NCBI GenBank assembly: GCA_918797485.1
Contig: CAKKNE010000002.1
Span: 3,004,501 to 3,068,500, forward strand
DNA length: 64,000 nt
Reading direction: 5' to 3'
Source of the DNA: Pelagomonas calceolata
Lineage: Eukaryota > Sar > Pelagophyceae > Pelagomonadales > Pelagomonadaceae
The notes beneath the pieces are model-generated. The model had not been told where the DNA came from. It worked only from the letters and a program-made list of their open reading frames with translations, and did no database searches. Numbering within the stretch: the stretch's first letter is position 1; each line of letters starts with the position of its first letter. The translations under genes were made by a program, and so were the position numbers. Positions 142 through 57,121 of the stretch are shown one piece after another.

Positions 142-3163
<3,022 letters not shown>

Positions 3164-10500: not shown

Positions 10501-13500
10501 GCACCGCGGTGGAACGAAGAGTTCGGCCTTTATTGCGTGCCCGGTGAACTGCCCGTCCTCAGAGTCGTATGTGAGGATTATGATAAGTGGTCAGCGAATG
10601 ACAGCATGGGCGTGTTTGAAATCGACTTGCATGAAATAAAAACGTTGCTGGCGCAGCCGCGGTCGCGGCATCGCGCCTGGTTCCAACTTGAGACAGATCC
10701 GGCGTGTCCGAAGGATCCCGTAACTGGTGCGCTGGAATTAGTGCTGAGGTGGCGCCACAACCCGGAACTGCATTTTACGCCCTTTGGCGGTTTTGTCGAA
10801 CCGGAAAAGTACCTGGAGAAGCCGCCTAATGAATTGCGCGTGTGTTTGATACGAGGCAAAGGTTTAATTCCTCGGGAACGCTCAAAAAGGAAGGACGACC
10901 CCGGGTCGGCCTCGCCGCGGTGCGTGTTTACGTACGCCGGGAGCGACCTACGCGTCGCGAGTGAACATAGAGAAGCGACGCTGTCGCCGACCTGGAAGCA
11001 GGAACTTATCTTACCGATCGAGGAGTTCCAGAAGTCCGTGGAGGGTCCTCACTTATCTGTTAAGCTAGAAAGCGTCGCTTCCGGTAGTAGCATGGGTACC
11101 TTCGAAGTACCCCTAAGGCCGGCCATGCATTCTCTGTACAGAACGTGGTGCGCCGTAATGCCCGATGCTGATGGCAAGGAGGTCAAAGGGCGCGTGGAGA
11201 TCGCGCTGTACTGGGGTTACAATCCCGAGTTGGCCTACGAGCCTTACGAGGAGGAGGTCGACGAGTATCCCACAAAAGTTAGAAATGAGTTATTATTAGC
11301 TGTCGTGCGCGCGCGCGATCTAGCGCCGAAGAAGGGCGGTTTATTTTCGACAGGTGGTTTACCTAGTCCTTCCGTGAGACTGCGGGTCCCCGGGACAGAT
11401 GTGGAAGTGACCACAACCAAGAGGAAGAACACGCAGCACCCCGTCTTCAAAGAAGAATTTAAACAGGAGTACGAGGCCTCGGATGAGAGGAAACCGGGCT
11501 TGATGGAGGTTATTGTCGAACACAACAAAAAAGTACTGGGCATAGGTATCCTACCTCTGTCCGGTGTGAGAAGGGAGTTTCGGTTAAGACAATGGCTCAC
11601 GCTGAAAGACCCAGAAACAAGAAATGCGAGCGGCAGTATTTGTTTGATAGGATGCTGGCGGCACAACCCCGCCTTAGTGTTCGACCCCTTCGGGGGCCCT
11701 GTCATCCACAAGGACCGGTTGCAGAACGAACTGCAGATATCTGTGTATCGATGTCGCTGTTTACCGCTGCGCGAGAACGGCAACGAGCCCTCTCCCTCGG
11801 TGTCTGTGGCTCTCGGCATGGCACCCGCTGTCAATACAGATAAGAAGAAGGCCCAAGCCGCGCCCACGTTCAAGAACAACTTTGCGTTCAATGTGGAGGT
11901 CGGTGATCCTGTTGACTGTGATATAACAGTATATGACCATCAAACGATAAGCAAGAAGGTGATCGGGATTGTCAAGCTCCGCGATTTAACAGAGGGCCTC
12001 TCGAATCGATTGCCCTTCCGGAAGTGGTATCCTCTGGAATCGAAGGACGCGCAGTATGTCGAACGGCCGCTCATAGACCCGCCGCGAGCGCCGGGCGAGG
12101 AGGCTCGCAAGGAGGACGCGCCGCTCGGCCAAGTCCAGCTCTTATTTAGATGGCGGCACAACCCGGCCTGCGAGCCGCAACTATTAGGGGATTTGATGGA
12201 CACGCCGGCGAAAGAGGCGAACGAGTTGCTGGTGCTGGTGGGAAGAGCGCGGGACCTGAGACCTTCACGTCTAGAGATACCTGATGAGATAAAAATCAAA
12301 GATAGCATGTTCGGCAATAGTACAGAGGAGGGGAAGATGCGGGCGTTTTTGCAAGCGTCCTACGTGATTGATGAGGAATCTACATCCATAAATACTCGAC
12401 TCCAAAAAGGCACGTACGGGCCGCGCTGGTTCGAACTTTTAAGGGTTGGTTTACATGAACACGCCGTGGACACGGACGAAGTGTCTGACTTGGCAATTGA
12501 AATAAGAGATCGGATAGTGAGAGGTACTGATGGCAACCAGCCGATCCTCGGCAGTATTACATTGGACCTGCGAGACGCACTTAAACAGCGCCGCAAACAC
12601 TCAAATGAGGAACTACCGGCGCCGGACTGGCGCTGGCACTCTTTGATCAAACCCGAGGTCCCCGTCAAGAAGCTAGCTTTTAACGAGGAGCCGCCTCCCC
12701 CCGACCCTCTAGCCACGCTCAAAATCGCGTATCTCTTCCGACACGACCCCGATCGAGCGCCGGAGTACTACACTGGGCCCGATCTGTTCCCCGCCGAAGA
12801 ACCGAACGAGTTGAGGTTAGCTATTGTCGCCGCGAGAAATCTCGGCAAGCGCCCCGACTTACTCATTTACCAGAGACCGAAGACGCCACCTAAGTTAGAA
12901 GAAGGCGCACGTATTGAATTCGAAGGCAAGGGAGGTTTGGTGATCCAAGCGCCGGACACGAAAGGGGGCTGGTGGAAAATACGTTTAGATGGAGAGGCCA
13001 AGCTCAAATCGGTAAGGGCACCGAAGCTCACCGTGCTCGAGGGGGCCAAAAGGGCATCAAAATCCTCGCGGGCCTCGACGGCGGCGGGCCCGGCGCCGGC
13101 GCCGGCGCCCGCGCCGGCCGCGGCGCCGGCGCCCGCCGCGCCCTGGGCCGAGGATTTGTCAATCGCCTCGGCCGTGCCGCCGGACGCCGGCTCGCCCTTC
13201 CCTTCTACGTGGGTCCGCGTCTCGGCCCACATCTCCAAGACGACCATCGAGACGGAGATCGTCCAGAGGACCCGGCGACCCACGTATGGAGAGGAGTTCA
13301 CGTTCGAGGTCGACGAGCTCTTGCTGGATCAGGTCGTCGATGACACTTCTACTGTTAAAATAGAGGTCTTTGATTCGCGGGGCGACGAGGATACGTGTCT
13401 GGGTGTCTGTACGGTGCCCATCCTTCCGATGCTCGACAAGAACGTGAGAAGGCGGTGGATGGCCCTCGACTCGCCTTATGCGAAGCCGTCCTGCAAGGGC

Positions 13501-14670
13501 GCGGCTTATGGGGACGTGCCCGGCTGGTCGCGCTTGAAAGATGTACTCCATGAGAAAGATATTGCGCCCCTCGGTCTACTCGACGTGTGTCTACGGCTGG
13601 AGACGGGCGCGGAAAGAGCTGCCTACATGGCATCACCTATAGGAAGAATTCGACGGGCGTGCCGCAAGTACCGACTCAAAGAAGGGGAGGACGCGATATT
13701 GACTCTGCGACGCGTCAAAGTCTCGCTCAAGAACTGTACCTTGATCACGGCGCTCCTGGACCCGCAAATTGCGAGAGACGCCTTACCGGACGCCGTCGCA
13801 CCTCTCCTGATAAAGGCCGATCTGCGGACCTGCGGTTTAGATGGTGAGAAGCTAGAGAGATTGGCTCAAGCGCTGCCTCAGAATAATATACTGAGGGAGA
13901 TCGACCTCTCCGGAAATAATTTTGATGACGGAAATCGGACCAAGGCCGTCCAGAGGCGCTACGAGGCCGATATCGTGCAGGACACGGGCCACGGCTTCCG
14001 CATGGCCTTCGGGAAGAAGACGATTGCGGAGCACGTCTTATCAGATGAATACACCGTGAAAGACGACGAGGATTCTTTGGCGGCGAATATCGGACTCAAA
14101 GCGTTGGGCGAGGCCCTGAAGACCAATACTGGACTAGTATCAATAAACCTGTCCGAGAGCCGCGTCGAGGCGAACGGCCTCGCGGCTCTATCACAGGGGT
14201 TAAGGAGGAACGCGTCCCTGACCGAACTCAAGCTAGCAAGGAACATGGTCTGCGACGTCAGTCCGCAGGGCTGGGGCGCGCACTCGTCGCGGGGCGTCGA
14301 CGCGCTCGGCGAGGCCCTTGCGTACAACGACACGCTGCAGAAGCTGGATCTGTCGCAGAACCAGTTGTGTGGGGTCACAAGCCCGTGGTGTTCTGGTTCG
14401 AAAGGGACCTTCGCGCCCGGGGCGCTCTTGGCTCTGCGACGGCCGCTGTCTCGGAACGCCGCGCTTCGCGAATTGAATCTGACGGACAACGGGGTCCTGG
14501 AAACGGCCCGGCCGCTGGTCGACGACCTGAGCGGCGCGCGGTTGAGGGGAGGCGGCGACTTCCGGTTGCTGGAGCGCGTCGGCCGGGCGAAGCGGGCCTA
14601 CTGCATTTTGAGAAGGGCGGAGTACTACGCCGAGGTGGCTGCCAATGCGCGGGGCGAGTCGGCCTACTAA
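7534..14670 (+). CDS. Giant multi-C2 protein (nine C2 domains) with C-terminal leucine-rich repeats
   Basis: This 2378-residue single-exon protein begins with a Lys/Ala/Glu coiled coil and acidic Ala-rich linkers (residues 1-440). Nine C2 domains follow, each opening with an NEL-(hydrophobic) strand near residues 461, 622, 784, 937, 1098, 1251, 1398, 1562 and 1758. They are joined by linkers of the type RWRHNPEL-x-F-x-PF. Several keep acidic Ca2+-loop residues and the SDP and DxMG marks (EDYDDFSANDFMG in the third), so Ca2+-dependent lipid binding is likely for some. C-terminal RNI-type leucine-rich repeats (about 2085-2345; LREIDLSGNNF, LQKLDLSQNQL) close the protein. There is no transmembrane segment, unlike ferlins and MCTPs. 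A peripheral membrane or scaffold role is inferred. Confidence 0.9.
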   Translation: MPESKAQRKARMKAEKKAKLEAKRAAAKDERALREDAERAAEVANAAIKVYVDRGIDEVTGPLITNAIQGALDDAIWLQPAAAPAPAPAPAHEPPKWAVGDVVVCDLRLPVARQICEEKREELEEARGLLVEAQAAADEKPGDRDAIQALYKAQNRLPDFEEAFQEAEDYVHSLVVAGLSAKDGGVVIVGTVRDIIISDEAQALEQYWDDYAEKEKDLGEILNERPDLLMQARARLDDVPAWGEQPKLSIAEVAKQLFASGDMFDVALVEECWKHRNPPQIPEGDAERPNTAARDAAADITQSVLDDLGDDDDEQDAGEDAAAAAEALAAKIAAAEEAAAADQVVEEEAPPAEEPVDEWQETVKEQLAKVEDMLKDDPENEQFKELRQTLLDEIAKAPAPPPEPYAVKGQVSCYVIERHNGQMVVMPFDWCEKYRPVDVSEPDVSRYDPFLLAEDHLAETVNELQIGLVRAHSLAIRDLRKWYQKKDTIESSDPRVVFSIKGRPDIQLRSTVREKTLSPAWAESFELELMWDEIKEDPTLTIRIEDYDGKLSKSESMGICEIPLSGREHTRSREWYTLQVDPSNKKGLVTGEVEIVLRWRHVPSRVFKPFAGLEDNLQKCPNELIIGLGRGRNLPIMDRSLFSKGGSSDPRVVVWIEGVDEPLVSSTKKKSLNPCWREVFKLEVPPTLEDPILRIKCEDWDLVGKPDSMGLVDVPLIDYRIQLGFTSIDHRQKTRQWLALGPDPKAKKLKPQGELEIELWMRYSLELDFDPFLDRNFFKIERPNELQVGLIRGRDLAAKDGGTFTTATSDPQVVFTINGTELVYKSTYKVKTLAPRWNEIFLIEFEDGMTEDDTPTLRCTCEDYDDFSANDFMGFVEFDIRKYTHRRHRDWYDLLPDPKRPKEQVSGKLEIVLRWWHNPELAWEPFLDSTDVDDVEPNELLVALVRGRELAPRDACGLSFKPVTSDPQVRFRIIDTDERQQSTHKIKTLAPRWNEEFGLYCVPGELPVLRVVCEDYDKWSANDSMGVFEIDLHEIKTLLAQPRSRHRAWFQLETDPACPKDPVTGALELVLRWRHNPELHFTPFGGFVEPEKYLEKPPNELRVCLIRGKGLIPRERSKRKDDPGSASPRCVFTYAGSDLRVASEHREATLSPTWKQELILPIEEFQKSVEGPHLSVKLESVASGSSMGTFEVPLRPAMHSLYRTWCAVMPDADGKEVKGRVEIALYWGYNPELAYEPYEEEVDEYPTKVRNELLLAVVRARDLAPKKGGLFSTGGLPSPSVRLRVPGTDVEVTTTKRKNTQHPVFKEEFKQEYEASDERKPGLMEVIVEHNKKVLGIGILPLSGVRREFRLRQWLTLKDPETRNASGSICLIGCWRHNPALVFDPFGGPVIHKDRLQNELQISVYRCRCLPLRENGNEPSPSVSVALGMAPAVNTDKKKAQAAPTFKNNFAFNVEVGDPVDCDITVYDHQTISKKVIGIVKLRDLTEGLSNRLPFRKWYPLESKDAQYVERPLIDPPRAPGEEARKEDAPLGQVQLLFRWRHNPACEPQLLGDLMDTPAKEANELLVLVGRARDLRPSRLEIPDEIKIKDSMFGNSTEEGKMRAFLQASYVIDEESTSINTRLQKGTYGPRWFELLRVGLHEHAVDTDEVSDLAIEIRDRIVRGTDGNQPILGSITLDLRDALKQRRKHSNEELPAPDWRWHSLIKPEVPVKKLAFNEEPPPPDPLATLKIAYLFRHDPDRAPEYYTGPDLFPAEEPNELRLAIVAARNLGKRPDLLIYQRPKTPPKLEEGARIEFEGKGGLVIQAPDTKGGWWKIRLDGEAKLKSVRAPKLTVLEGAKRASKSSRASTAAGPAPAPAPAPAAAPAPAAPWAEDLSIASAVPPDAGSPFPSTWVRVSAHISKTTIETEIVQRTRRPTYGEEFTFEVDELLLDQVVDDTSTVKIEVFDSRGDEDTCLGVCTVPILPMLDKNVRRRWMALDSPYAKPSCKGAAYGDVPGWSRLKDVLHEKDIAPLGLLDVCLRLETGAERAAYMASPIGRIRRACRKYRLKEGEDAILTLRRVKVSLKNCTLITALLDPQIARDALPDAVAPLLIKADLRTCGLDGEKLERLAQALPQNNILREIDLSGNNFDDGNRTKAVQRRYEADIVQDTGHGFRMAFGKKTIAEHVLSDEYTVKDDEDSLAANIGLKALGEALKTNTGLVSINLSESRVEANGLAALSQGLRRNASLTELKLARNMVCDVSPQGWGAHSSRGVDALGEALAYNDTLQKLDLSQNQLCGVTSPWCSGSKGTFAPGALLALRRPLSRNAALRELNLTDNGVLETARPLVDDLSGARLRGGGDFRLLERVGRAKRAYCILRRAEYYAEVAANARGESAY

Positions 14671-33387: not shown

Positions 33388-34436
33388 CTGCGTTGGCGGA
33401 TAAACCCCTGACCCCTCCTGAAGTGTATGCTGGTATGGAAGTGTTTTGACCCTTCGTTCTTCCTTCCATGTTGCCGATTTTTACATGTTTTGCCACCAAC
33501 ACGCGATCTCGAACTTGGCGCGGATCGCGCCCCACGCAGCAGTCGCCGCGGCCGGGGCGAGGACGATTACAACAGATCCGGCTCCGCGGCCCACTCCTCT
33601 TCTTCAAAGCGCTTCGAGCGCGGCGAAGGGCAGCTTGTACAACAGGCACGGCTCTGCGGCCATGAACACGCAGACGCTCCGCGTCCGCCGCACGAACTCG
33701 TGCGTCCCAATAATGGTGGACAGTCAGGCGGCCGCTCGCGACTATATACAGCGCATCATCATGCCCCCGTCGGCTCGTCGGCTGCTCCAAGCGGTAGCAA
33801 TGCCTCGCCCGATTTCAACCTCCTTGCCTCGGCACATTCACTCAGGCCGGGCTCCGCCAGCAATGCATCTATCTCTGCATCAGCTGCGAAGCCTGATAGG
33901 TGGTCATGGCGTCGACGCGCATCGTCACCTGCGGGGGGTTCGCTCGTGCCAGCGGTGTGCGAAACGTCTCGGAGACACGAGTCCCGAGCGCGCGTCCTCA
34001 GTTCTCCAAGGTGTGGTTGTGAGTTTCTTCCACATGGCGTTTCCGCTCAGAGTCTCAGGTCTCATTAAGTGATCGTCATCGGACGTGTGCGCGTGAAAAA
34101 TGCGTGGTTACTGCTCGGTGCTGAGCTTGGCAATTTGCCTGAATCCCAGCAGCGGTGCCGCGCCGCTGCAGGCAGCCGCTGCTGTCACTTTTAGAGCCTT
34201 TGCGATAATAATTCGCTCGCGCACTGCCTGTTTGCACAGCTGTGTGGCTTTTGTCCAGGCCTCTCTCTCTCGCTGCTTACCCAAACTCTGAGGCTGGCGC
34301 CGCTAGCGCGCTGTAAGACACTAGCATCTAGCTCTGCAACCAAGCAATGTGCCTTAAAATACCCGTTTCGCACCTCTACCGGCCGCATGATACTTGTACG
34401 AGTGGTTTTCACTGCCGAGACATCGATTTTCCAGCA
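33388..34436. other. Region with possible unassigned 5' exons; intergenic
   Basis: On the minus strand, coding-like sequence (TIIGTHEFVRRTRSVCVFMAAEPC near 33720-33640 and GSVVIVLAPAAATAAWGAIRAKFEIAC near 33580-33500) may be upstream exons of the membrane-protein gene, but an in-frame stop separates them and no splice sites were settled. From 33800 to 34300 nothing is recognised apart from the motif copy at 34302-34325. Confidence 0.35.
34302..34325. repeat. Intergenic palindromic motif (copy 5)
   Basis: GCTAGCG at 34302 is followed by CTGTAAGACACTAGC to 34325. It lies about 110 bases before the GST start codon. Confidence 0.75.
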
Positions 34437-35357
34437 ATGCTTGCAGCACTCATCTCCTGTGTGGCAGCAGCCTCAGCAATAGCACCACCGCAAGTCACGA
34501 GCGCCCGCACAGTAGCGCAGCACTTGTGGACGACGAGGCAACTCTTCGATACAGACATCCATGCCATTGTGCAATGCGGCTCCGGCCCGAGCGAGTACAG
34601 GCTCGCGTACATGCCATGCCGCAATCGGGGGGAGATCATCAGATTAATGCTCGAAGAATCCAAGTGCTCTTACGAGCTCGAGGTCGTCGGTTTTCGTGCG
34701 TGGGCTCGGGATGTCAAAATGACGACGCCGGACGGCAAATTGCCGTGTTTGCGGAACTACGATGGTCGGGGTACTGACCTCTGTCAAGAGCAGGCCATTA
34801 CGCGTTTTCTCGCCGACAAGCTCGGCCTCGCGGGTTCTGACGCCGCGGAGCGCGCCGCCGTCGACGCCATGTACTGCTTCTGGTTCTCGACGCTGCGAAA
34901 TAATGGCGTCAGTCACGACGGCGAGCACTATTCGGTTGCTGCATTGAAAGAGGCCGACGAGGGCCTGAGCGCAACAAGTGTGCCGCCGTACGAAGCCGTG
35001 TTCCGCCTGGACCCGCTCTCCCGCGCCGAGCGCTCGCTCGTCGCGCTGAAACGCTTCGAGGAGGTGCTCGGCGCGAGCAAATCGGGCTACCTCGTGGGGG
35101 AAGGCGTGACGTACCCAGACTTAGGTCTCTTCTACATACTGTACGAGTTGGCCGAGGACGACAACGTACCCGACTTCGCCGCGCGGTTCGCGCTGCCCCA
35201 CTGCGGCGCGTTCCTAGACCGGATGAGCTCGCGTTCGCAGCTCGCCGACTTCCTCACGTCGCCGCGGCGCATGCCCCGGTACGCGCGGGACCCGTCCGGC
35301 AGCAGCACGTACCTGTACGTCGCCGGGCGCGCGTCGCCCGAGATCTTGGAGGCGTAA
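34437..35357 (+). CDS. Glutathione S-transferase-like protein with signal peptide
   Basis: The protein has 306 residues from ATG 34437, which places a signal-type sequence MLAALISCVAAASAIAPP at the N-terminus. An upstream in-frame ATG at 34347 would bury it. The thioredoxin-like N-domain shows YRLAYMPCRNRGEIIRLMLEES (compare the GST start Y-F-x-x-R-G-R-A-E-x-I-R), KLPCLRNYDG with the cis-proline of the glutathione site, and CQEQAITRFLADKLGL in place of (E/Q)-S-x-A-I-x-R-Y-L. The helical C-domain includes YLVGEGVTYPDLGLFYILYEL. It is closest in style to sigma/prostaglandin-D-synthase-like GSTs. Conjugation or isomerase activity in the secretory pathway or plastid is inferred. Confidence 0.85.
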   Translation: MLAALISCVAAASAIAPPQVTSARTVAQHLWTTRQLFDTDIHAIVQCGSGPSEYRLAYMPCRNRGEIIRLMLEESKCSYELEVVGFRAWARDVKMTTPDGKLPCLRNYDGRGTDLCQEQAITRFLADKLGLAGSDAAERAAVDAMYCFWFSTLRNNGVSHDGEHYSVAALKEADEGLSATSVPPYEAVFRLDPLSRAERSLVALKRFEEVLGASKSGYLVGEGVTYPDLGLFYILYELAEDDNVPDFAARFALPHCGAFLDRMSSRSQLADFLTSPRRMPRYARDPSGSSTYLYVAGRASPEILEA

Positions 35358-43800: not shown

Positions 43801-44188
43801 GGAGGAGCGCAATCGAATACAAGCGGAACAGATGGATAAAGCATTAGCGGCGCTCGCCGCGGCCGCGCCGGCGCCAGCATCGCCGCCTCCTTCTGCCAAA
43901 CTGGAGCCGCCGACGCCCGGCACCGACTACGGCGACGACGAATTCGAGAACAGCGCGGCGACGCCGAAGTACGAGGAGTCCTTCGAGGCCGACGCGCCGG
44001 CGACGCCCGCTGTTGATGCAATTCCGGAGGATAGTGTGGCGGCGCCGGCGCCTTTATTGGCGCCGACGCCCGAGCACAGGCCGCCGCCACCATCAAAGAT
44101 GGAGACGCCCTTCTCGCACGCTTCTACCGAAGGTTATGGGGAGGACGACGACTTTGAAGATGAGGACTTTGCGGACTTTGAGGACTAA
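40895..44188 (+). CDS. Coiled-coil protein with EF-hand pair and Tudor-like domain
   Basis: The protein has 1097 residues from ATG 40895 (ACCATGG context). Features in order: Arg/Pro-rich start (KRVRPKRRRKILPLIQYRAPPP); a first Lys/Glu coiled coil (about 190-265); the motif PFTASLLANRPSTTASS (about 453-469), nearly identical to one in the 5.9-kb gene; an EF-hand pair (LREIFDRVDTSGDGEISVVEA and ALGALDSDGDKNISWAEF, about 580-655) with canonical D-x-(S/D)-G-D loops; a Tudor-like domain (GTRIEARYEAGDEWYAGVIEV to YDVLYDDGD, about 675-720); a long Arg/Glu coiled coil (812-985); and acidic DYGDSFDDFE-type repeats. A Ca2+-responsive cytoskeletal or ciliary scaffold is inferred. Confidence 0.88.
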   Translation: MVAGIVVMVGGGQQPAAQQNMMFGGAQLKPLKASSSAPLGKVGNLPGGMSASLKSLMDSTQVPRKRVRPKRRRKILPLIQYRAPPPQPPRPAGGPRRGPRRQRPVQESDDQSTADPFAFRQSEPLSKPKHATHWSAMLRGEQKSMAEQVTRFPERDEPAMWAAKDEQHAIECRQKAYAEAAEARRADDAVNAYKRDLELRRRQREQQQKKEAEEEKAKKEADARAAAARKRALPKKRRLRPELSPLKAGQAKTVSIQEPPKQEKKVVDVNAEDEGDLWDAILNDDAPSAPPVVVEQKKATHYGHISPEKSQQMQRPMRDVVAEQKARWKKKREQEKRFLKQQVAKARRDLDKRAHVRVDARPLRGNSNLVKAHQGSLMPGFDASGSFIDKEGALPLREDGVRPMTGKKISRRYGEDWLAEHFKSLVGGGGVVAFTPGEDQADEEMEPHESPSRPFTASLLANRPSTTASSRRGAASPASVEEEEASPRARALEESARKNAEAVAALREDTARLAKKNAEEDTRRARFEEFKATGSRDALRVETAPEPDALVVSQEPAEEAESSASGGAPVGDKTRAALEARLREIFDRVDTSGDGEISVVEAVKALRKDDGFAEVLGFDEATRVRQEDGTKDQLILALGALDSDGDKNISWAEFRRVALDDETPATPQKQITNFAVGTRIEARYEAGDEWYAGVIEVAHEDGSYDVLYDDGDREANVSADLVKREGPDSKRKTPPVAATPVVAAQTPATAASDDYGDSFDDFEEPPSTAKKSPMPVVAEGGDDARQLDFEPESAPELAPEPEADEPAPVDPLSPGAAAFEKEKEKLAQQKAEKAALSPYKSPPPEKKAEMLAKAKAERAAKQEAARIEYEAQQERDRIERERREEEERIERERLAAIKAEEDRIAAERAEAERLERERLAAIREEELRIEKERREAERIAREKAAAEEAERERRKREMEAQLARERAEMEERNRIQAEQMDKALAALAAAAPAPASPPPSAKLEPPTPGTDYGDDEFENSAATPKYEESFEADAPATPAVDAIPEDSVAAPAPLLAPTPEHRPPPPSKMETPFSHASTEGYGEDDDFEDEDFADFED

Positions 44189-44391
44189 TTTTTTGGGGGG
44201 CTTGTATTTTTCTAGGCTGTTCCGCGCGCTCGTTTTCGTCCGCAAACGAGCGCCGGGGGTCTCGCGTACCCACTGCAGCCTCGTCGGCTTCTCGACCCCG
44301 TGAGATTGATGATACGGGCACCGCGCGGCTCCGAGGTCGCATAGGGGGGTCTTTGGGGTAGTGTAGACTCAAGGGACAAAAAAATAAGCGT
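44189..44391. other. Gap between scaffold gene and tRNA
   Basis: Contains a T-run and G-run just after the stop and A6 at 44378-44384, which on the minus strand is a T-run after the tRNA and could serve as its RNA polymerase III terminator. Confidence 0.5.
44378..44384 (-). terminator. Pol III terminator candidate for tRNA-Pro
   Basis: A run of T on the minus strand starts about eight bases after the tRNA 3' end, the usual place for a Pol III terminator. Confidence 0.65.
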
Positions 44392-44516
44392 GGGCCGAAC
44401 CGGGGATCGAACCCGGGACCTCCTGTATGCTTGCGAGCGCGGCGCGCGGCGCGCGGACCCAAAACAGGAATCATACCTCTATGCTGGAACCCTTTGACGG
44501 GTCTGACCATTCGGCC
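44392..44516 (-). tRNA. trnP-UGG: tRNA-Pro(UGG) with two introns, one in the D-loop
   Basis: The acceptor stem GGCCGAA (44516-44510) pairs perfectly with TTCGGCC (44399-44393), with discriminator C at 44392 and no encoded CCA. The T-arm is CCGGG-TTCGATC-CCCGG. The D-stem GTC/GAT and D-loop TAGAGGTAT match eukaryotic tRNA-Pro, but 23 bases (44504-44482) separate C12 from the loop. The anticodon stem CCTGT/ACAGG has the loop TTTGGG plus T, split by 30 bases (44457-44428) at the canonical 37/38 site; the anticodon is TGG. Removing both inserts leaves a normal 72-nt tRNA body. The first insert has its own short hairpin (ACCC/GGGT). Exact D-loop intron borders could shift by a base or two. Confidence 0.9.
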
Positions 44517-44756
44517 GATGCATCCAACGCTAAAAAGTATCGGTGGCGGGCGCACAACTGCAGCCCAGCACACCTCTTTTTCTTTCTTCTGAGCCTTCAT
44601 GAAGCATACTACGAAACGGCCCGTTTTCGAAATAATAGTTAAAAACGCTGTGTGTTTTTGTCGCGCACGGCTGCCAAGGAGGGCTAACAACAGTGCAACG
44701 CCACGCAAGGGCCCAGCTTCGAGCGTGCCACCGCCAGCAAGCCAGCCTTTGGAGCC
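44517..44756. other. Divergent gap between tRNA-Pro and PIG-L gene
   Basis: These 240 bases contain no recognised feature beyond the upstream regions of both genes. Confidence 0.5.
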
Positions 44757-45645
44757 ATGCACCGCCTCACCGAGAGCATCATAGACAATGCCACCATCAT
44801 CCTGATCATAGCCCACCCCGACGACGAGGCCATGTTCTTCTACCCCACGATATCGCGCGCGAAACGACTGCACATCATCTGCCTTTCCAATGGCGGCTAC
44901 GACGGCCTCGGCGAACAGCGCGAAAAAGAGCTGCAGCGCGCGGCGCGTCGCTTGGGCGCCTCAGCGACGTGCGTCAACAACGCGGCGCTCCAAGACGGGC
45001 CGCACGCCTGGGATCCAAGCGTCGTGGCGGCGAACGTGGGGCCGTGGCTGCACGCCGGCGCGGTCGTCGTGACGTTCGATCGCTACGGCGCGTCCGGCCA
45101 CGCGAACCACGTGGCAGTCTACCACGGCGCGGCCCCGGCGTCCTTCGCGCGGCGCGGCGACGGCGTGACGCGCGACGCACGCAGGCGTCCGGCGGCTCGC
45201 CCAGACGAGACGAGACTGCCGGTTCTACGCGCTCGAGACGGCGCCTCATTATAGACGGTACATCGGCGCGTTTGATGTACTATGCGCCGCCGTGCGCGCG
45301 CGGTTTGATCCGCGCCCGTGCCTTGTTCAGTGTCCTTGAAGCTCCGCGTCGATGGCGTGCTCTGTGTGTGTTTTTCCGCCTCCGCCTCCACGCCATCGAC
45401 GCGGCCGCTCTGTGCGTTTGTCTCTCGACGCCATCGACGCGATGCGGGGTGCCGAGAGAGTACGTGATACCGTTGCGGCGGGAAAGACACGCTACGCATA
45501 TAGGTCCGTGCTCGTCGCGAGCCTCGACGTGCGCGGCTGCTACGCGGCGCTCGCGGCGCACGCGTCGCAGCTGGTCTGGTTCCGGCGGCTCTTCGTCGTC
45601 TTCTCCGCGTACACGTACGCGAACCGGCTCGTCGTGATCGATTAG
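44757..45645 (+). CDS. PIGL: PIG-L: N-acetylglucosaminyl-phosphatidylinositol de-N-acetylase, spliced
   Basis: This enzyme performs step two of GPI-anchor synthesis at the ER. The start holds the zinc-site motif IIAHPDDEAMFFYP (A-H-P-D-D-E), LHIICLSNGGYDGLGEQREKEL, and VVVTFDRYGASGHANHVAVYHG with the H-x-N-H ligand pair. A second coding part (RFYALETAPHYRRYIGAFDVL) is in another frame, so the frame changes between about 45150 and 45215; either a tiny intron (GTGACG to CGCAG, 20 bases) or an indel. A 174-base intron at 45330-45503 (GTGTCC to CATATAG, phase 2) leads to the last exon (45504-45645), which has CYAALAAHASQLVWFRRLFVVFSAYTYAN, the typical C-terminal H-x-S-Q-x-x-W-F-R. It lacks an obvious N-terminal membrane anchor. 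Confidence 0.88.
45330..45503 (+). repeat. PIG-L intron with inverted GCGTCGATGGCGT copies
   Basis: This GT-AG intron is 174 bases. GCGTCGATGGCGTG at 45347-45360 is followed by inverted copies CACGCCATCGACGCG (45393-45407) and GACGCCATCGACGCG (45429-45443). The same core is found in the introns at 5.0, 33.1 and 56.3 kb. Confidence 0.7.
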
Positions 45646-46970: not shown

Positions 46971-47459
46971 GGTTACTTTGCGCAGCGGCGTTGCCGCGCT
47001 TCGCACCAGCGATACGTACCTCACGAGTTACGCCCGCCACTCCTTGCTGCAAATGCTGGCCAGGCTGCAGGCTGTCGTATTGTTGCTCACGCGCCCTTCA
47101 CTGCGCGAGCGCGCGCAGCCGTTATGCACGGGAGACAGGCGTCGCTTCACGCAGCGTTTCACCACAGATCGCGATAGATGCACAACTAGGCTGCAATTGC
47201 CAATGACATTGGCCAAAATAGCAAGGGAGAGCAAAAACACCAAAATCAATCAAGAGATGAGAGGAGAGCCCTCCCGAGAACCTCCTGACGCCTCACAAGC
47301 CGTTTTCGCAAGCCCTCCTCGCCTGGCCGGCAGCTCTCAGCGCCAAGACGAGTTGGGCTCTCAGGCAGCCAAATATAGCGCCGCGAGGCAGCCTTGCACC
47401 CGCCAAGCGCCACGGGGACACCACTCCAAGCGCAAGGGCAGCCCTCGCAAACAACGACG
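46971..47459. other. Divergent intergenic region
   Basis: This 489-base gap lies between the basic protein gene (minus) and the EF-hand gene (plus). It is less GC-rich in 47160-47270. No motif copy or gene is recognised. Confidence 0.5.
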
Positions 47460-48254
47460 ATGTCGGCGCCCCGGACGGCGCGCACCGTCACGGGCCGCAC
47501 CAACACCGCCCGGAGCGAGGGCTCCGCAACGGGCCGCCGGAAGGCGCTCAACCGCGCCTCGGCGGGCGCGACGCCCCGCGCGCCGTCGCAGCCGGCGGGC
47601 GCGCCGAGCTCGGAGCGGGGCGCCTTCGGGCGCACCCAACTCTCGCGGACGTCGCCTCTTAGAAGTGTATTGCTAGATCCGGAGGTGAATAATTTGCCTC
47701 CAGCTAGGACGCAAACTGAGTACGCAGAATTCGTAAGAACGAGAAACAAAGCTCACAGTTCCTACGACTTGGATGAAGACGGCCAAGTCACAGTTCAGGA
47801 CTACAAGCTCGCGGCGTCCTTAGATGTCGACGGCGACGGTAGATTAGACACGGACCGGCACAAAGAGGGCGGCCTGATCCTCGCGGAGAGATTTTTTGAG
47901 CGCCAGATCGTCCCCGCAAAATTTCACGGCGACTGCTGGACGGCTCGAGAAGGAAGAGAGGGTTTCCAGGAAAACGCGCGGCGCCTCGCGAATTCTCAAC
48001 ATTTCGGCGCGGGCTTGAGGATGCTCGAAATGCGCGAGAAGCGGCTGTTGGGGCGGGCGTCCCTCAACATGACCGCGTGCATGCAGGCCCCAAAGGGCCC
48101 CGACGAGGGCCCGCGGTCGCACCTGCTGGCCCATCGGAAGCGCACGGAGCGATTATTCGGCCAGGCCCAGTTAGATAAGTGGGACGCCAAGCTCGAGAAG
48201 TGGTCGACGAAGCGCGTCTCGCCCATCTCGAACTTGGCGTTCGAGAACGGCTAG
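47460..48254 (+). CDS. EF-hand protein
   Basis: The protein has 264 residues from ATG 47460 (MSAPRTARTVTGRTNTARS). The first 80 residues are low-complexity Ser/Thr/Arg/Ala. At about 120-145 a paired EF-hand-like unit, YDLDEDGQVTVQDYKLAASLD followed by DVDGDGRLD, has Ca2+-loop spacing D-x-D-x-D-G. The C-terminal half is Arg/Lys-rich helix (RMLEMREKRLLGRASLNM; HRKRTERLFGQAQLDKWDAKLEKW). The TARTVTGRTNTARS start resembles Arg-Thr-Ala repeats of protist flagellar proteins. A Ca2+-sensing cytoskeletal role is inferred. Confidence 0.78.
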   Translation: MSAPRTARTVTGRTNTARSEGSATGRRKALNRASAGATPRAPSQPAGAPSSERGAFGRTQLSRTSPLRSVLLDPEVNNLPPARTQTEYAEFVRTRNKAHSSYDLDEDGQVTVQDYKLAASLDVDGDGRLDTDRHKEGGLILAERFFERQIVPAKFHGDCWTAREGREGFQENARRLANSQHFGAGLRMLEMREKRLLGRASLNMTACMQAPKGPDEGPRSHLLAHRKRTERLFGQAQLDKWDAKLEKWSTKRVSPISNLAFENG

Positions 48255-49952: not shown

Positions 49953-50523
49953 GGTGGATGGTCTCGGTTGAGTCGAAACTGTGAGATGGTCCGCGAAGTT
50001 GCACCTCGAGATTGCCGCTCCGCCGCTGCTGTTGCACTTTGCTGGGGGCAGCCCGCGACGCTGCGGGGGGCGCGGCGGTGGGTTTAATGGATGGCGGGGG
50101 TCGAGGAAAGGGGCCGCGCGTGGGGTTTGAGGCAGCTTACGGTGTCGGCGGGTCGCTGTCACTTTGACACTGCGAGTAGCACGGCGTGCTAGCGATTCTG
50201 AGTAAGATCGGCGGCCTTGGATCCCTGCTGCGATCGCTCGTGGGGGCTCGGCCGGGGCGGCCGCCGCCTGGGACCCGTTGCGTTCTGTTTTTTTCATCCT
50301 AGTGTCTTACGGGCTAGCTCGTGGCGGCTGAGTTTGGTCGAGACGACTGCGCTTGCTATAGCTGTTGCAGCTCGGCGGCCTGCATTTTTCTGTGCATTTG
50401 TGTCCAGTACCGTGGACGAGCGCGTACCGTTGTCTAGATAGGCAACAAGAGCAGCAGTGTGCACAAGTGCTGCTGCTGAACTGAACAACAGTAGTGCACA
50501 AGTTTTGCTCAAAAACCAGAGAG
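49953..50523. promoter_or_regulatory. Divergent promoter region of AMT and VWA8 genes
   Basis: This 571-base gap between head-to-head genes contains the palindromic motif copy at 50299-50318. No defined nitrogen-response site was recognised. Confidence 0.5.
50299..50318. repeat. Intergenic palindromic motif (copy 6)
   Basis: CTAGTGTCTTAC at 50299-50310 is followed by GCTAGC at 50313-50318. It lies between the two divergent genes. Confidence 0.75.
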
Positions 50524-53500
50524 ATGCGCCGCACTGCACCAATGCTGCTCCGGCACCTGTCCTCCGACAGCGTCGACAGCGTGCGCGTCGGGCGCGCCGT
50601 GACACGACTAAGAAATGGAGGCGACTTTAAGCCCGTCGGCGCGCTCGCGACGCTGCCGCCGCGGCTCGGCGCGACGCTCGAGTGGCTCTGCCAGAAGGAC
50701 GCGCTGGGCCAGGACGCGCTGCTGATCTGCGCGCCGGCGGAGCGGGCGCGGGCGCGCCGGGCCGCCTTCGCCTTCGCCGAGCTCGTGAACGCCGAGGCCT
50801 ACTACGTGGGCGTGTCGCCGGACACGGCCGAGGCGGACCTGCGCCAGCGGCGCGAGCTGACTGGTGGGGGGAGCGCGGCCTGGTCCGACGCCGCGCCCGT
50901 CCGCGCGGCGTTGGCAGGGGGCGTCCTGATTCTCGACGGGCTGGAACGGGCGGAGCGCAACGTGCTGCCCACGCTGAACAACCTGCTCGAGAACCGCGAG
51001 CTGGCGTTAGATGATGGTCGGAGACTCGTGCCGGAGTGGCGCCTCGCGCAACTGCGGGAGGAGGTCGACGTGCCCCTGCTCCCCGTTCCACAAACGTTCC
51101 GGGTGATCGCGCTCGCGTCGCCGGCGCCGCCTTTTACTGGAAGAGCCCTCGACCCGCCCCTGCGCTCGCGGCTCCAGGCCCACGTCGTGCCGAGCTTCGA
51201 CGTCGACGAGCTGCCGCCGCACGAGGACCTCGCCGCGGCTTGTGCCGCGTTGCTCGAGATCGAGCGAAACAACGCCGTCGCCGCGGCCGCGTCGCGGTCT
51301 TCAGATACGACGTTCGCCTTCTCCGGCACGGCGATCAAACGCGTGGCGCGGCATGCCTCGGACGCGCGGGCCGTGCTAGAGCGGTGCTACCCGCCGCTCG
51401 CCGGGCGTTATCTATTGGGCAAGGCCGTCTCAAAGGACGCGGTCGAGGCCGTGGACCGCGTGCTCGGGGCCCCGGCGGCGGACGAGGGCGCGGGCCGCGC
51501 GGACGGCGCCCTCTGGCTCTCCGCGACGCAGAGCCGCGCGCTCGCGGCCGCACAATCAGACCTAAAGAACGGCGAGCACGTGGCGCTCGTGGGCCCGGCC
51601 GGCGGCGGCAAGTCAATCATGGCGGCGCGCGTCGCGCCGGCCGCCGCGCGGCTCCAGACCTGCCACAAGGACCTCACGGCGCGCGATTTATTACAGAGCC
51701 GCGCGACGGATCCCGCGACGGGCGCGTCGACGTGGCGCGACGGGCCTATCATCGAAGCGATGCGCGCCGGGTCCTCCGTCATTCTGGACGGCGCGCACCG
51801 TTTACAACGAGGAGTCCTCGCGGCGGCGCTCTCGCGCGCGCTCCACGACGGTATCGTGGACCTGCCCGACGGCTCGCGGCTCGAGGCGGCCGAAGGCTTC
51901 CGCGTCGTCGCCGTCGCCGAGCCGGGAGCGTGGCTCGGCGACGGCGACGTGGCGGCCTGCTTTTCGTCGCACGCCGTGCCCGAGTGGGCCGATGATGATA
52001 TAGAGGCGGCGCTGGCGCACCTCGTGCCGGGCTGCGACGCACGCGCGCTCGCGGCGGTCGCGCGCCGCTCGCGCGAGGACGGCGACGCCGCGACGCGGCT
52101 GAGCATAAGGTCGCTCCTGCGCGTCGCGCGGCGGCTCGCGGCCGGCGAGGCCGACGTCAAGCCGCTGGTCGAGGAGGCGCTCATGGCGGCGTTCCTGCCG
52201 CGGCGGCTGCGGGACAAGGTGGACGACTGGTTCGCCTCGTCCAGTGACGAAGAAGTCGAGGCGACGGCCGCCTGGACCGTCGCTGGAGAAGATGTAAGCG
52301 TCGTGGCGCGCCGCGACGGCGCCACCGCGGCCACGGTTGCGATGCGCGGGCGCGGCCGCGCGCCGGAGCTCGTGCCCTCGTTACCGAACTACGTGCCGAC
52401 GCGCGCGGCCGAGGCGGCCGTCGCGGCGCTCGTGCAGCTCGAGGCCGCGGGCGAGCGCGCCGTGTTGGTGTTAGGCAACCAGGGCGTCGGCAAGAACGTC
52501 GCCGTGGACCGCTATTTATCCCTTTGCGGTGCTGAACGCGAATATTCGCAACTGCACCGCGACTCGACCGTCTCTTCATTAACGGCCACCCCGACGCTGG
52601 AAGATGGAATTCTGAGACACGAGGACGCTCCGTTAGTAAGAGCGGCGCTCCACGGCCGCGTTTGCGTGTTAGATGAGGCGGACAAGGCGCCGACGGAGGT
52701 GACGGTCCTGCTCAAGGCCTTGGTCGCGGACGGCGTGTTGCCGTTGCCGGACGGTCGCATACTGAGAGTGGGGGACAACGTGCACGCCGATTTTAGGTTG
52801 GTCGTGCTGGCGAACCGGCCGGGCTACCCCTTCCACGGCAACGCGCTGTTCCGCGAGTGCGGCGACGCCTTCGCTGGTCTGGTGGTGGACAATCCCGACG
52901 TCGACAGCGAGGTCGCCTTGCTCGAGGACGTGGCGCCGTCGCGGCCCCACGATGAGCGAAGACGCCTCGCGTGCGCGTTCGCCGAGCTGCGCGCGCGGCA
53001 CGAGACCGGTTCGTTAGCCTACCCCTTCTCGATGCGCGAGTGCGCCGCCGTCGCGCGCCACCTTGAATTGTATGGGTCCGAGGACGAGGGCGTGGGCGAC
53101 GCTTTGGCGAATGTCCTCGCGCACGACGCCTACGCGCCGCAGCGGGCCATGGTCGCGGCGGTCTTCGAGGCTCACGGCTTTGAGGGCGTTGCGGATAAGT
53201 TACAAAGGAAGCTCGACGGGATTGTTCCATCAATGGCGTACGACGTGGAGTATACGTCTATCAAAGGGAGCGGCGGCGCGTCCGTGCCGCGGACGGGATT
53301 AAGTGCCCCAAAATTCGGCAAGGTCGACCCGTCCGGCAATCCGCACGTCGGCGGCAACACGTGGGCTGGAGGAAGTGGCGGCTCGGACACCGCGGGACTC
53401 GGCGGGCGGGGCGGGCCCTATCGTTTGTGGGACGGCAAGCACGTGCCGCACCAAGTTTCCGACGAAGCCAAGGCCGAAGTCAGTGAGGCGGCTAGAGCAG

Positions 53501-54423
53501 AAGGTAGGAGGCAGGCCCAGATCGCCCACAAAAAAAGACTGGAGGAGATCGAGGGCATGACCGAAAACGAGTGGGACACCTATAAAGGTATGCTCGATCG
53601 AATCGCGCCGCACGTCGCGTCACTAAGGGAGCAGCTCGGCGCGGCGAAGGATCGCAAGTCCGAGAGGACGTGGTTGCGACGAAGGTCGGACGGCGAACTG
53701 GATGATGATCGCTTGGTCGACGGCGCGGCCGGGGAACGGTTAGTTTTCAAGCGGCGTGGGAAACCGGATCCCCTGGATAGAAAGCCGACGGAAGAGGACG
53801 AGTTCCGGAAGCGGACACTGTTGTTCCTTGTTGATGTCTCAGGAAGTATGTACCGCTTTCAGATGATGGACGGGAGACTGGCACGGATGCTCGAGGCGAC
53901 GATGCTCGTCATGGAGGCGTTGGAAGGGCTCGAGGGCAAGTACGAGTATGCCATACGAGGTCATAGTGGAGAGAGCGATGGGGTCGAGTTTGTCGAGTTT
54001 GGGCAGCCGCCTTCTAACAGAGGAGAACGACTCAAAGTCCTACAAAGGATGGTCGCGCACTCGCAGTTTTGTGATACTGGAGATAGAACTATAGAGGCGA
54101 CGCGGCGGGCCATTTCGGACGTGTCCGCGCGCGGCTTTGTAGATGACGAGGAGGAAAGGAAGCATCTAGTCGTGGCGCTGTCGGACGCGAATTTTAGTCG
54201 CTACGGTTTGGACCCGCGCTGGTGGGCCGAGGCGCTCTCCGATTCCGACGCGGTCGACGCGCATGCGGTCATGGTCGGGTCGATCGCCGACGAGGCGTCG
54301 CTCGTGGCCGGGGCGCTGCCGCGGGGGCGCGGCCACGTGTGCTTCGACGCGGACGAGCTGCCCGTCGTCTTCAAGCGGATCCTGCAGCACGCGCGGATTA
54401 TTGATGATGGGGAGGAGATGTAG
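50524..54423 (+). CDS. VWA8: VWA8-like AAA+ ATPase with C-terminal von Willebrand A domain
   Basis: The protein has 1299 residues from ATG 50524. The N-terminus MRRTAPMLLRHLSSDSVDSVR is a probable mitochondrial presequence. Three dynein-like AAA modules are seen: the first has a degenerate P-loop (LLICAPAERARARR), the second has LVGPAGGGKSIMAAR (about 356), and the third has LVLGNQGVGKNVAVDRYL (about 650) followed by VCVLDEADKAPTEV. After a Gly-rich linker, an acidic/Lys helical part leads to the VWA domain with MIDAS motif LFLVDVSGSMYRF (about 1103). The length is much shorter than animal VWA8 (about 1900), mainly by condensed AAA linkers. Family members are mitochondrial matrix-facing ATPases of unclear substrate. 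Confidence 0.93.
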   Translation: MRRTAPMLLRHLSSDSVDSVRVGRAVTRLRNGGDFKPVGALATLPPRLGATLEWLCQKDALGQDALLICAPAERARARRAAFAFAELVNAEAYYVGVSPDTAEADLRQRRELTGGGSAAWSDAAPVRAALAGGVLILDGLERAERNVLPTLNNLLENRELALDDGRRLVPEWRLAQLREEVDVPLLPVPQTFRVIALASPAPPFTGRALDPPLRSRLQAHVVPSFDVDELPPHEDLAAACAALLEIERNNAVAAAASRSSDTTFAFSGTAIKRVARHASDARAVLERCYPPLAGRYLLGKAVSKDAVEAVDRVLGAPAADEGAGRADGALWLSATQSRALAAAQSDLKNGEHVALVGPAGGGKSIMAARVAPAAARLQTCHKDLTARDLLQSRATDPATGASTWRDGPIIEAMRAGSSVILDGAHRLQRGVLAAALSRALHDGIVDLPDGSRLEAAEGFRVVAVAEPGAWLGDGDVAACFSSHAVPEWADDDIEAALAHLVPGCDARALAAVARRSREDGDAATRLSIRSLLRVARRLAAGEADVKPLVEEALMAAFLPRRLRDKVDDWFASSSDEEVEATAAWTVAGEDVSVVARRDGATAATVAMRGRGRAPELVPSLPNYVPTRAAEAAVAALVQLEAAGERAVLVLGNQGVGKNVAVDRYLSLCGAEREYSQLHRDSTVSSLTATPTLEDGILRHEDAPLVRAALHGRVCVLDEADKAPTEVTVLLKALVADGVLPLPDGRILRVGDNVHADFRLVVLANRPGYPFHGNALFRECGDAFAGLVVDNPDVDSEVALLEDVAPSRPHDERRRLACAFAELRARHETGSLAYPFSMRECAAVARHLELYGSEDEGVGDALANVLAHDAYAPQRAMVAAVFEAHGFEGVADKLQRKLDGIVPSMAYDVEYTSIKGSGGASVPRTGLSAPKFGKVDPSGNPHVGGNTWAGGSGGSDTAGLGGRGGPYRLWDGKHVPHQVSDEAKAEVSEAARAEGRRQAQIAHKKRLEEIEGMTENEWDTYKGMLDRIAPHVASLREQLGAAKDRKSERTWLRRRSDGELDDDRLVDGAAGERLVFKRRGKPDPLDRKPTEEDEFRKRTLLFLVDVSGSMYRFQMMDGRLARMLEATMLVMEALEGLEGKYEYAIRGHSGESDGVEFVEFGQPPSNRGERLKVLQRMVAHSQFCDTGDRTIEATRRAISDVSARGFVDDEEERKHLVVALSDANFSRYGLDPRWWAEALSDSDAVDAHAVMVGSIADEASLVAGALPRGRGHVCFDADELPVVFKRILQHARIIDDGEEM

Positions 54424-55284: not shown

Positions 55285-57121
55285 CTAGAGCGGGCCGGCC
55301 GTCGTGCCGGGGAGCCGCGGCGTCGCCAGCGCCGACGCCATGCGAGCCTGCTCTTCGAGAGAGGGCGGCGGATCCAAACCGCGGTCCTCGGCGACCTGCG
55401 CGCCGCCCGGGATAGGGAGGTCCCTTCCCCGCTTCTTCGGTAAGGGCCCGAGCTCGGCGTCGAGCTCCTTCAACAACGCCTCGAGCGCGTCCCTCGATTC
55501 CCACTCGATCATGTACTTCATGGAATTCGGGCACTGGCACGAGTAGGCGACGTGGCGCAAGCACACTATATCTTTTTTGGAGCACTCACAACCAACAGCA
55601 CTCAAAAAGCACGTGTGCTGGCAGGCAATGCAAATACGCTTATCATCATACGTCGTCGCCGCTATATTAATAACGTCCGTCTTGTTCGCCGGCGGCGTGC
55701 ATAATTTACTAATGTCGCGCACGCCGCTCGCGTAGGCCGCGTCCCTTAGTTTGAGGTCTTCTACTACCAATCGTCGGAGTTCTTCTCTTAGTATTGTTCT
55801 AGCCTGGCCATCGATCGTATCTCTACCTTCGTTCGCTCGTAATGTAAACATGAGCCGATCATGAGAAATGACCGCCAATCGACCGGACCTCCGATATCTC
55901 TCATTGGCAACTCTAGCGTGCTGGACCCAGTCCGGCGTCGCGAAGTTCACGGCCTCCCCACAATTGAATCCATACGAAAAGCCGCCGTGAAAGGCCTGCG
56001 GAAACGTGACCACAAATTCTCCGGGGTTCTGGCAGATGCGGTGGATCGGCACCTCCAGAGCAGCTAATTTCGCGGGCGAGATCTGGAGGTTGATCCTATG
56101 TAACAAGTCAGGAACTTCTAGTAGTCTTTGCTTGTGGAAGCGGCGGACGACGTCTTCGAAGCGCGCCGCCTCCGAACCGGGGATGCCGTACCACTGCTTC
56201 GGCGCGCCGGTGTGGTGGTAGTTGATGGACTCGAAGTAGTTGTCCTCGTTGTGCCTGCGTGCAACGCTCTCACGTGGCCGCGTCGACGTCTTCATGAAGA
56301 CCACGTCTGTTCTCTAACGAGACGCGTGGACTCTCTGACGGCCGCGTCGACGCCATCGCGGCGACGTGGGCTCATGAAGACGCCATCGACGCGACCGCGT
56401 CACGTTCAAGGTCATTTCTGCGCCGAGCCGCGGACCACGGGAACGTCGCGAAGAGCATGCCCATGTACAGCCACGGCTGCGTCACGCCCGGCAGCGGCGC
56501 GTCGTGGCGTCTCAACAAAAAACCGGGCCAGCGCGCCGTGTTGTTCAGGTTCCAGCCCGACTGTTTTACGTAGGACGGATCCTCGACACTTTGCGGCAGA
56601 TTTTTATCTGAGAGTTGATCGATGTCGACGCCTCGCGGGAAGCCACTCCAAAATTCGTTCACGTCGATGTCGTTGCCATATTCTACATCTAGCTTCTCCC
56701 TTACTTGGTCGACGATGGCCCAGTAGTCCTCCTCGAGGCGTTTCAGTAACGCGTCTCCTTTGAGGTCGGGGTACTTCGCTATTCTTCTAGCATAGAACGC
56801 GTCGGCCATGCGCCGGTACTCTTCCAGGGTGTACTCGCGGCCGTCGCCGAAGGGCTGGCCCTCGCCCAATTCATGGAGCCGCTGCCGCTTCGTCGCAAAT
56901 TTTTTTGTGGAATTCCAGTCCACAGCAGACTCAACCTTCCAGCCGCGCGGCGGGACGATCTTGCAGATGCCGAAGGGCTCGGCTTCTCTCCTGATCGAGG
57001 CCACGTAGCGCAGCGGGTCGCGGAACTGCGCCGCGGTCGGTCTAAACACGGGCGCATCCGGGATGGGCCGGTCGCTCAGCGTGGCGAGCTTCGTCTCGAG
57101 CTTCGAGTTCTCCAGAGCCAT
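55285..57121 (-). CDS. JmjN-JmjC histone lysine demethylase, two exons
   Basis: This is a Fe(II)/2-oxoglutarate-dependent demethylase. Exon 1 (57121-56436) has JmjN (APVFRPTAAQFRDPLRYVASI, about 23-62) and the start of JmjC ending LYMGMLFATFPW. Exon 2 (56254-55285) begins HNEDNYFESINYHHTGAPKQWYGIPG. The join through a 181-base GT-AG intron (56435-56255, phase 2) restores the conserved M-L-F-x-T-F-x-W-H-x-E. Iron ligands are H230, E232 and H318 (in FPQAFHGGFSYG). A C5HC2-like zinc finger follows (CIACQHTCFLSAVGCECSKKD). The order JmjN-JmjC-C5HC2 without ARID or PHD resembles plant-type KDM4/KDM5 relatives acting on H3K4 or H3K9/K36. Exact specificity is open. Spliced length is 551. Confidence 0.92.
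56255..56435 (-). repeat. Introner-like intron in JmjC gene
   Basis: This intron is 181 bases. It contains GCGTCGATGGCGTC and, about 35 bases on, GCGATGGCGTCGACGCGGCC. CTTCATGA and GACGTGGTCTTCATGAAGAC show a second repeated unit. The core is shared with introns at 5.0, 33.1 and 45.4 kb. Confidence 0.7.

Follow-up and report, generated by a model that had tools for sequence, protein, structure and literature searches.

We found that a 125-nt segment on the minus strand (44516-44392) of the window, by which we mean the whole 64 kb stretch of DNA analyzed, is very probably a functional nuclear gene for tRNA-Pro(UGG) with two protein-spliced introns, as judged from its sequence and from predicted RNA folds. 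The mature form has 72 nt without an encoded CCA, and it is obtained only if two inserts are removed: the D arm contains one of 23 nt (44504-44482), and the other, of 30 nt, follows position 37 (44457-44428). An earlier note on this DNA had claimed that the arms pair only when these 23 and 30 bases are taken out; the cloverleaf obtained after excision, and the call that the tRNA finder ARAGORN then makes, bear this out. The same note had put the first insert into the D loop. It indeed lies in the D arm, but not inside the D loop proper: the actual site, 12/13, is where the D stem has its edge.

All parts of the gene read on the minus strand. Exon 1 (12 nt, positions 1-12; 44505-44516), delimited with ARAGORN after removal of the D-arm insert, contains the 5′ strand of the acceptor stem, U8, G9, and G10 U11 C12. 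The D-arm insert at 12/13 (44482-44504), which we propose to be an ectopic intron, starts with AGACCC and ends with CAGCA. Exon 2 (24 nt, from ARAGORN; 44458-44481) comprises the D loop TAGAGGTAT, the 3′ side of the D stem, the 5′ side of the anticodon stem, the anticodon UGG and G37, and is followed by the GC-rich 30-nt intron at the canonical site 37/38 (44428-44457), which ARAGORN located with a fixed intron position. Exon 3 (36 nt, from ARAGORN and the predicted fold; 44392-44427) supplies the 3′ side of the anticodon stem, the variable loop, the T arm, the 3′ side of the acceptor stem and the discriminator base C. The exon order on the minus strand is 1, 2, 3, so that the halves are in their normal arrangement; a permuted tRNA gene, which needs the 3′ half upstream of the 5′ half, was rejected for this reason.

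After both excisions all 17 pairs of the acceptor stem (7/7), the anticodon stem (5/5) and the T stem (5/5) are standard, and the D stem has three standard pairs, one of them G-U; the D arm agrees with the tRNA-Pro consensus in this doubly excised form alone. The spliced sequence is identical to human tRNA-Pro at 54 and to Arabidopsis tRNA-Pro at 56 of 72 positions. Against the same two reference sequences, 7 of the 17 stem pairs are changed on both sides yet still paired, which is unlike the appearance of a decaying copy. These observations bear on the possibility that the locus is a pseudogene, that is, a normal gene with a 37/38 intron that gained a 23-nt D-arm insertion which is not removed, with other copies supplying tRNA-Pro(UGG). 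Such a history has a precedent, because short insertions in the D or T arm of eukaryotic tRNA genes are described as mostly hitting one of many synonymous genes, which are supposed to be pseudogenes (PMC4090602). We regard it as unlikely here, since not one acceptor, anticodon or T-stem pair is broken, the paired changes have kept their pairing, and a run of seven T is present behind the gene; above all, the D-arm insert has a predicted splice fold in the useful frame, to which we return below.

Standard gene finders miss the doubly interrupted gene. ARAGORN at its usual threshold reported no tRNA in the raw window, and on the raw gene it found nothing, whether or not it was allowed an intron of 0-200 nt; Rfam gave no match in the window at gathering score and none in 44300-44620 up to E=1. 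A permissive ARAGORN run returned 284 candidates in the window, among them the gene's place as Ser(aga), and was discarded as noise. With the 23-nt insert removed and the intron fixed at 37/38, ARAGORN called tRNA-Pro(tgg) with 72 bases and an intron of 30 nt. Without an intron option it reported nothing on this sequence, and with free intron placement it named the gene Ala(tgc), which reflects the program's ambiguity over where the intron is cut. With both inserts removed the call was Pro(tgg) under all three settings, and with only the 30-nt intron removed there was no call under any of the three.

The silence of the general finders at usual thresholds would fit a chance resemblance, with no tRNA gene at the locus at all. 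We consider this extremely improbable, given that ARAGORN accepts the gene with the insert out and that a disruption-tolerant cloverleaf scan, devised after the gene had been seen, found a single locus when both strands of the window were searched, whereas 20 Markov-1 sequences, each of 64 kb, yielded none. The scan requires a 5-bp T arm with a TTCRANN loop, a 7-bp acceptor stem, T-R-G-Y at positions 8-11 and a 5-bp anticodon arm, and leaves insert lengths free. Likewise, the window has a single occurrence of the split D-arm pattern GGTC-N10..40-TAGNGGTATGATTC, which none of 100 shuffles contains.

The D-arm insert is predicted to form a relaxed bulge-helix-bulge (BHB) fold of the hBH type. 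In this fold U8-G9-G10 (UGG) pairs with CCA of the insert, giving a central helix of 3 bp whose fourth pair would be the mismatch A7·G; a 3-nt bulge, U11 C12 ^A, leads into a 5-bp flanking helix GACCC/GGGUU, and the opposite bulge is CA^U13. The endonuclease cut comes after the second base of the bulge. The full BHB fold, in which tRNA introns cut by the endonuclease are found, is described as a 4-bp central helix with bulges of 3 nt and with flanking helices that exceed two pairs. A strict BHB is not required to count the insert among introns of this kind, because nuclear genes generally show relaxed versions (PMC3978253).

We examined all 182 excision frames given by 14 starts and 13 lengths, for the D-arm insert only. 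Start 12 with length 23 was the sole frame with three central and three, four or five flanking pairs, and this single frame is the one that yields the tRNA-Pro consensus; a strict 4-bp central helix with three flanking pairs was found in none of the 182. Three central and five flanking pairs were reached by 31 and 38 of 200000 shuffled inserts in two runs, and by 156 of 127954 genomic 23-mers of the window placed at the insert site. Under the looser rule of three and three pairs the counts were 595 of 200000 for shuffles and 961 of 127956 for genomic 23-mers; these are the fairer figures because the thresholds of the main test were taken from the observed values. The splice fold is imperfect, a point in favor of an unremoved insertion in a pseudogene. 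On the other side, it is found in one useful frame only, and shuffled inserts attain it in about 0.02% of cases at the strength observed here and in 0.3% under the looser rule; these structural predictions make the fold the main point against a pseudogene. The earlier proposal of two introns is likewise supported by this relaxed splice fold, which occurs in the very frame that had been proposed.

The second intron had been described as a canonical 37/38 intron, and we agree: it pairs with the anticodon loop, as is usual for such introns. U32-U33-U34-G35 pairs with CAAG of the intron (4 bp including one G-U), with predicted cuts at GG^U and CA^U. The intron begins one nucleotide 3′ of the anticodon, falls within the range of 6-133 nt for canonical nuclear tRNA introns and shows the 3-nt bulge CAU. 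Of the shuffles, 4.5% form the UUUG/CAAG helix taken alone; beside the bulge the inner helix has a single pair. G37 makes a lone pair in the minimum-energy fold, so that the 5′ bulge is not clean, and a longer helix within the intron begins two bases deeper. Other classes of intron were rejected: at 23 and 30 nt both inserts are far too short for group I or group II introns, and the D-arm insert begins with AG and ends with CA, which speaks against a spliceosomal intron.

The unconstrained minimum-energy fold of the unspliced 125 nt (-52.8 kcal/mol) contains the acceptor, anticodon and T arms together with the helices of both introns; the anticodon arm carries the UUUG/CAAG helix and the CAU bulge, and there is also a small CAUA/UAUG hairpin. 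Forcing the three arms and both motifs on the 125 nt left the energy unchanged. The overall energy of the precursor fold is special only mildly by this prediction (z = -2.11; 3 of 200 shuffles fold as low). In the D arm the central helix had pair probabilities of 0.64-0.81 and the flanking helix of 0.92-0.98. The CAUA/UAUG hairpin, with a pair probability of 0.68-0.71, can hide the site CA^UA at which the D-arm intron would be cut on its 3′ side. The spliced 72 nt have a minimum-energy fold that is not a cloverleaf (-26.7 kcal/mol, with the cloverleaf at -25.0, 1.7 above). The two reference tRNA-Pro sequences show a like gap (-30.2 vs -28.1 and -25.3 vs -23.6 kcal/mol, the cloverleaf lying 2.1 and 1.7 above the minimum), so this property does not single the gene out.

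The folds also address the idea that the insert is retained, either in a tRNA that works with a 32-nt D loop or in an RNA with another role. This is highly improbable in our judgment: with the insert kept, the predicted fold spends U8-G9-G10 on the insert helix and has no D stem, and a long D loop would be expected on general grounds to disturb the contacts between D loop and T loop.

The T arm contains a match, GGTTCGATCCC, to GGTTCRANNCC (44403-44413, minus strand), which we take to be the consensus of the internal B-box promoter of RNA polymerase III. With 2 such matches in the window against 1.25 expected, it is weak evidence alone. The run of seven T (44378-44384, minus strand) is a candidate RNA polymerase III terminator and lies 7 nt past the discriminator base; runs of at least seven A or T number 14 in the 64 kb window. 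The usual A-box region is presumably split by the D-arm insert, and an upstream promoter may therefore be used. Upstream promoters are mentioned for algae with permuted tRNA genes (PMC3978253).

From these elements we infer how a gene with two protein-spliced introns might be expressed. Transcription by RNA polymerase III would start upstream of 44516 and end at the T7 run. The pre-tRNA would then form the acceptor, anticodon and T arms, and each intron would present a BHB-like motif. A Sen-type tRNA-splicing endonuclease would cut the D arm at UC^A and CA^U, and after position 37 at GG^U and CA^U, and a tRNA ligase would join the exons. Of the Sen proteins, Sen15 is reported not to have been detected in Cyanidioschyzon merolae (PMC3978253). 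With the 23-nt insert gone, G10-U11-C12 would be free to form the D stem. The D-arm intron may leave first, a guess by analogy with Cyanidioschyzon merolae, in which the D- and T-arm introns are reported to be removed before the anticodon intron (PMC9602550, PMC3978253).

Searches of viral, phage and prokaryotic DNA collections found no relative with the D-arm insert, a result that, given the makeup of these collections, says little about related eukaryotes. The pattern GGTC-N10..40-TAGNGGTATGATTC matched 30 stretches in viral contigs and at least 115 in genome contigs. Among the matches listed, none of 151 (145 loci) has a full GGTTCRANNCC T arm within the next 130 nt, and we therefore took these matches as chance; at this distance the test would overlook genes whose anticodon intron is very long. 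Neither the exact 3′ end of the gene nor the exact insert with its neighboring bases occurs in the viral contigs. A word from the D and anticodon arms had one match, which lies within a protein-coding stretch of a phage-like contig and was rejected.

A scan for uninterrupted tRNA-Pro genes picked out two viral contigs, each with an intact 72-base tRNA-Pro(tgg) that has the D arm TGGTCTAGTGGTATGATTC and no insert. The order of the arms is the same as in the spliced gene; the likeness in the D arm exists by construction of the search pattern and demonstrates no kinship to the locus. The two contigs have an identical tRNA-Pro(tgg) sequence, with a tRNA-Leu(caa) next to it (L147:7424-7640, minus strand; L148:6348-6564, plus strand), and L147 carries seven predicted tRNA genes. 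A distant DNA search of phages gave short matches; among the best 5 of 54 records, three fall in tRNA genes of other isotypes.

The setting of the gene had been called stramenopile-like and nuclear. A nuclear eukaryotic origin is indicated by an uninterrupted CDC48 gene and a JmjC/C5HC2 gene, and the stramenopile-like part is plausible. The window has a mean GC content of 0.63 (0.54-0.74 per 2 kb) and several long uninterrupted frames. Nucleomorphs are AT-rich, unlike the window. For Pelagomonas calceolata, 63% GC and 0.45 intron per gene have been described (PMC9481584); the GC content and long frames of the window resemble this pelagophyte, but would suit other GC-rich algae as well.

A complete CDC48/p97 is encoded at 602-3163 (plus strand) by a single frame without interruption, which points to an intron-poor eukaryote. 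Among solved structures this protein is matched best by a chain with the name Cell division control protein 48 homolog A (1365 bits), presumably a plant name. Given this match and the eukaryotic neighbors, which include an ammonium transporter gene, we rejected an archaeal contaminant. The JmjC and C5HC2 zinc-finger gene is KDM5-like (55285-57121, minus strand) and, by eye, seemingly continues in a second frame (56372-57121).

Closer to the tRNA gene, a frame with a PIG-L (GlcNAc-PI de-N-acetylase) domain (44757-45245, plus strand) lies upstream of it and is divergent; this frame meets a stop codon at 45252, perhaps beyond an intron border. Between a frame ending at 44188 and the tRNA gene there is a 13-nt inverted repeat with a 2-nt gap and 92% complementarity (44226-44253). 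Elsewhere in the window we noted a frame of 2378 aa with nine matched C2-domain stretches (7534-14670, plus strand), and a protein of 1309 aa (50494-54423, plus strand) that has three AAA_5 stretches and, in its C-terminal part, weakly matches von Willebrand A-like sequence (E 0.0057). Solved structures gave no match to the EF-hand protein at 47394-48254. When plastid cleavage motifs of the ochrophyte type were sought, one weak candidate came up. The glutathione S-transferase-like protein encoded at 34347-35357 (plus strand) contains ASAIAP in its N-terminal stretch and did not pass the cleavage-motif filter; ASAIAP appears reminiscent of ASAFAP, which we take to be the ochrophyte plastid cleavage motif.

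Among the closest known parallels is the nuclear tRNA-Ile(UAU) gene of C. merolae, with introns at 12/13, 37/38 and 53/54 (PMC9602550). Both are algal nuclear genes that combine a 37/38 intron with a D-arm intron at exactly 12/13. The C. merolae gene differs in having three introns and in coming from a thermoacidophilic red alga, whereas the present gene is for tRNA-Pro(UGG) and has no T-arm intron; this comparison is of intron positions. In the Guillardia theta nucleomorph, nine tRNA genes (one a pseudogene) are reported to have ectopic inserts of 3-24 nt, which resemble our case in sitting in the D and T arms as well as at other sites, with two or three in several genes (PMC4090602). Many of these ectopic introns are described as having no defined BHB motif (PMC3978253). 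Unlike that reduced endosymbiont nucleus, the window is GC-rich with ordinary nuclear genes. The red algal and nucleomorph precedents that the earlier note had named are confirmed in published accounts (PMC4090602, PMC3978253, PMC9602550).

The same isoacceptor is interrupted in the crenarchaeon Pyrobaculum islandicum, whose tRNA-Pro(UGG) has an intron at 37/38 and further introns with BHB sites (PMC4090602). That gene belongs to an archaeal genome, and its ectopic sites, as described, are 25/26 and 56/57. The prasinophytes Ostreococcus and Micromonas, also small algae, have nuclear tRNA genes of unusual layout that are permuted and contain introns (PMC3978253); in our gene, unlike those, the halves are in normal order. 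For green algae the same source describes almost no atypical tRNA introns, except one at 27/28 in O. lucimarinus (PMC3978253). In a table from 2014, C. merolae is the only nuclear eukaryote entered for multiple introns (PMC4033280). Among the matches listed from the open-licence literature, none describes ectopic tRNA introns in stramenopile or haptophyte nuclear genomes, which we do not take as a claim of absence from print. This kind of ectopic intron is already known from a red alga and a nucleomorph; its occurrence in the present lineage would probably be new.

Nuclear tRNA introns have been described as exclusively at 37/38, a restriction tied to how the eukaryotic endonuclease recognizes its precursor (PMC3978253). 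Another nuclear case, outside C. merolae, would indicate that relaxed site choice is not peculiar to one extreme red alga, and would let the site choice of the endonuclease be tested in another lineage. Present tools may overlook such genes: according to its description, tRNAscan-SE 2.0 limits eukaryotic tRNA genes to one intron and seeks other intron sites in candidates from the archaeal search model (PMC8450103), and in the green alga Auxenochlorella the first tRNAscan-SE set of tRNAs is reported to have been incomplete until permuted genes were sought (PMC12633428). For algae of this kind, tRNA annotation should include programs that can recognize disrupted genes. We put forward, as a tentative idea that is somewhat less likely to hold than to fail, that in an alga whose plastid is secondary and of red type (an ochrophyte, for example a pelagophyte) the nucleus contains a set of tRNA genes that have BHB-type introns at sites other than the anticodon loop. 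If this is true, many such tRNA genes would be missing from present annotation, and the tRNA-splicing endonuclease would have an archaea-like freedom in its choice of sites, either retained from red algae or convergent with them.
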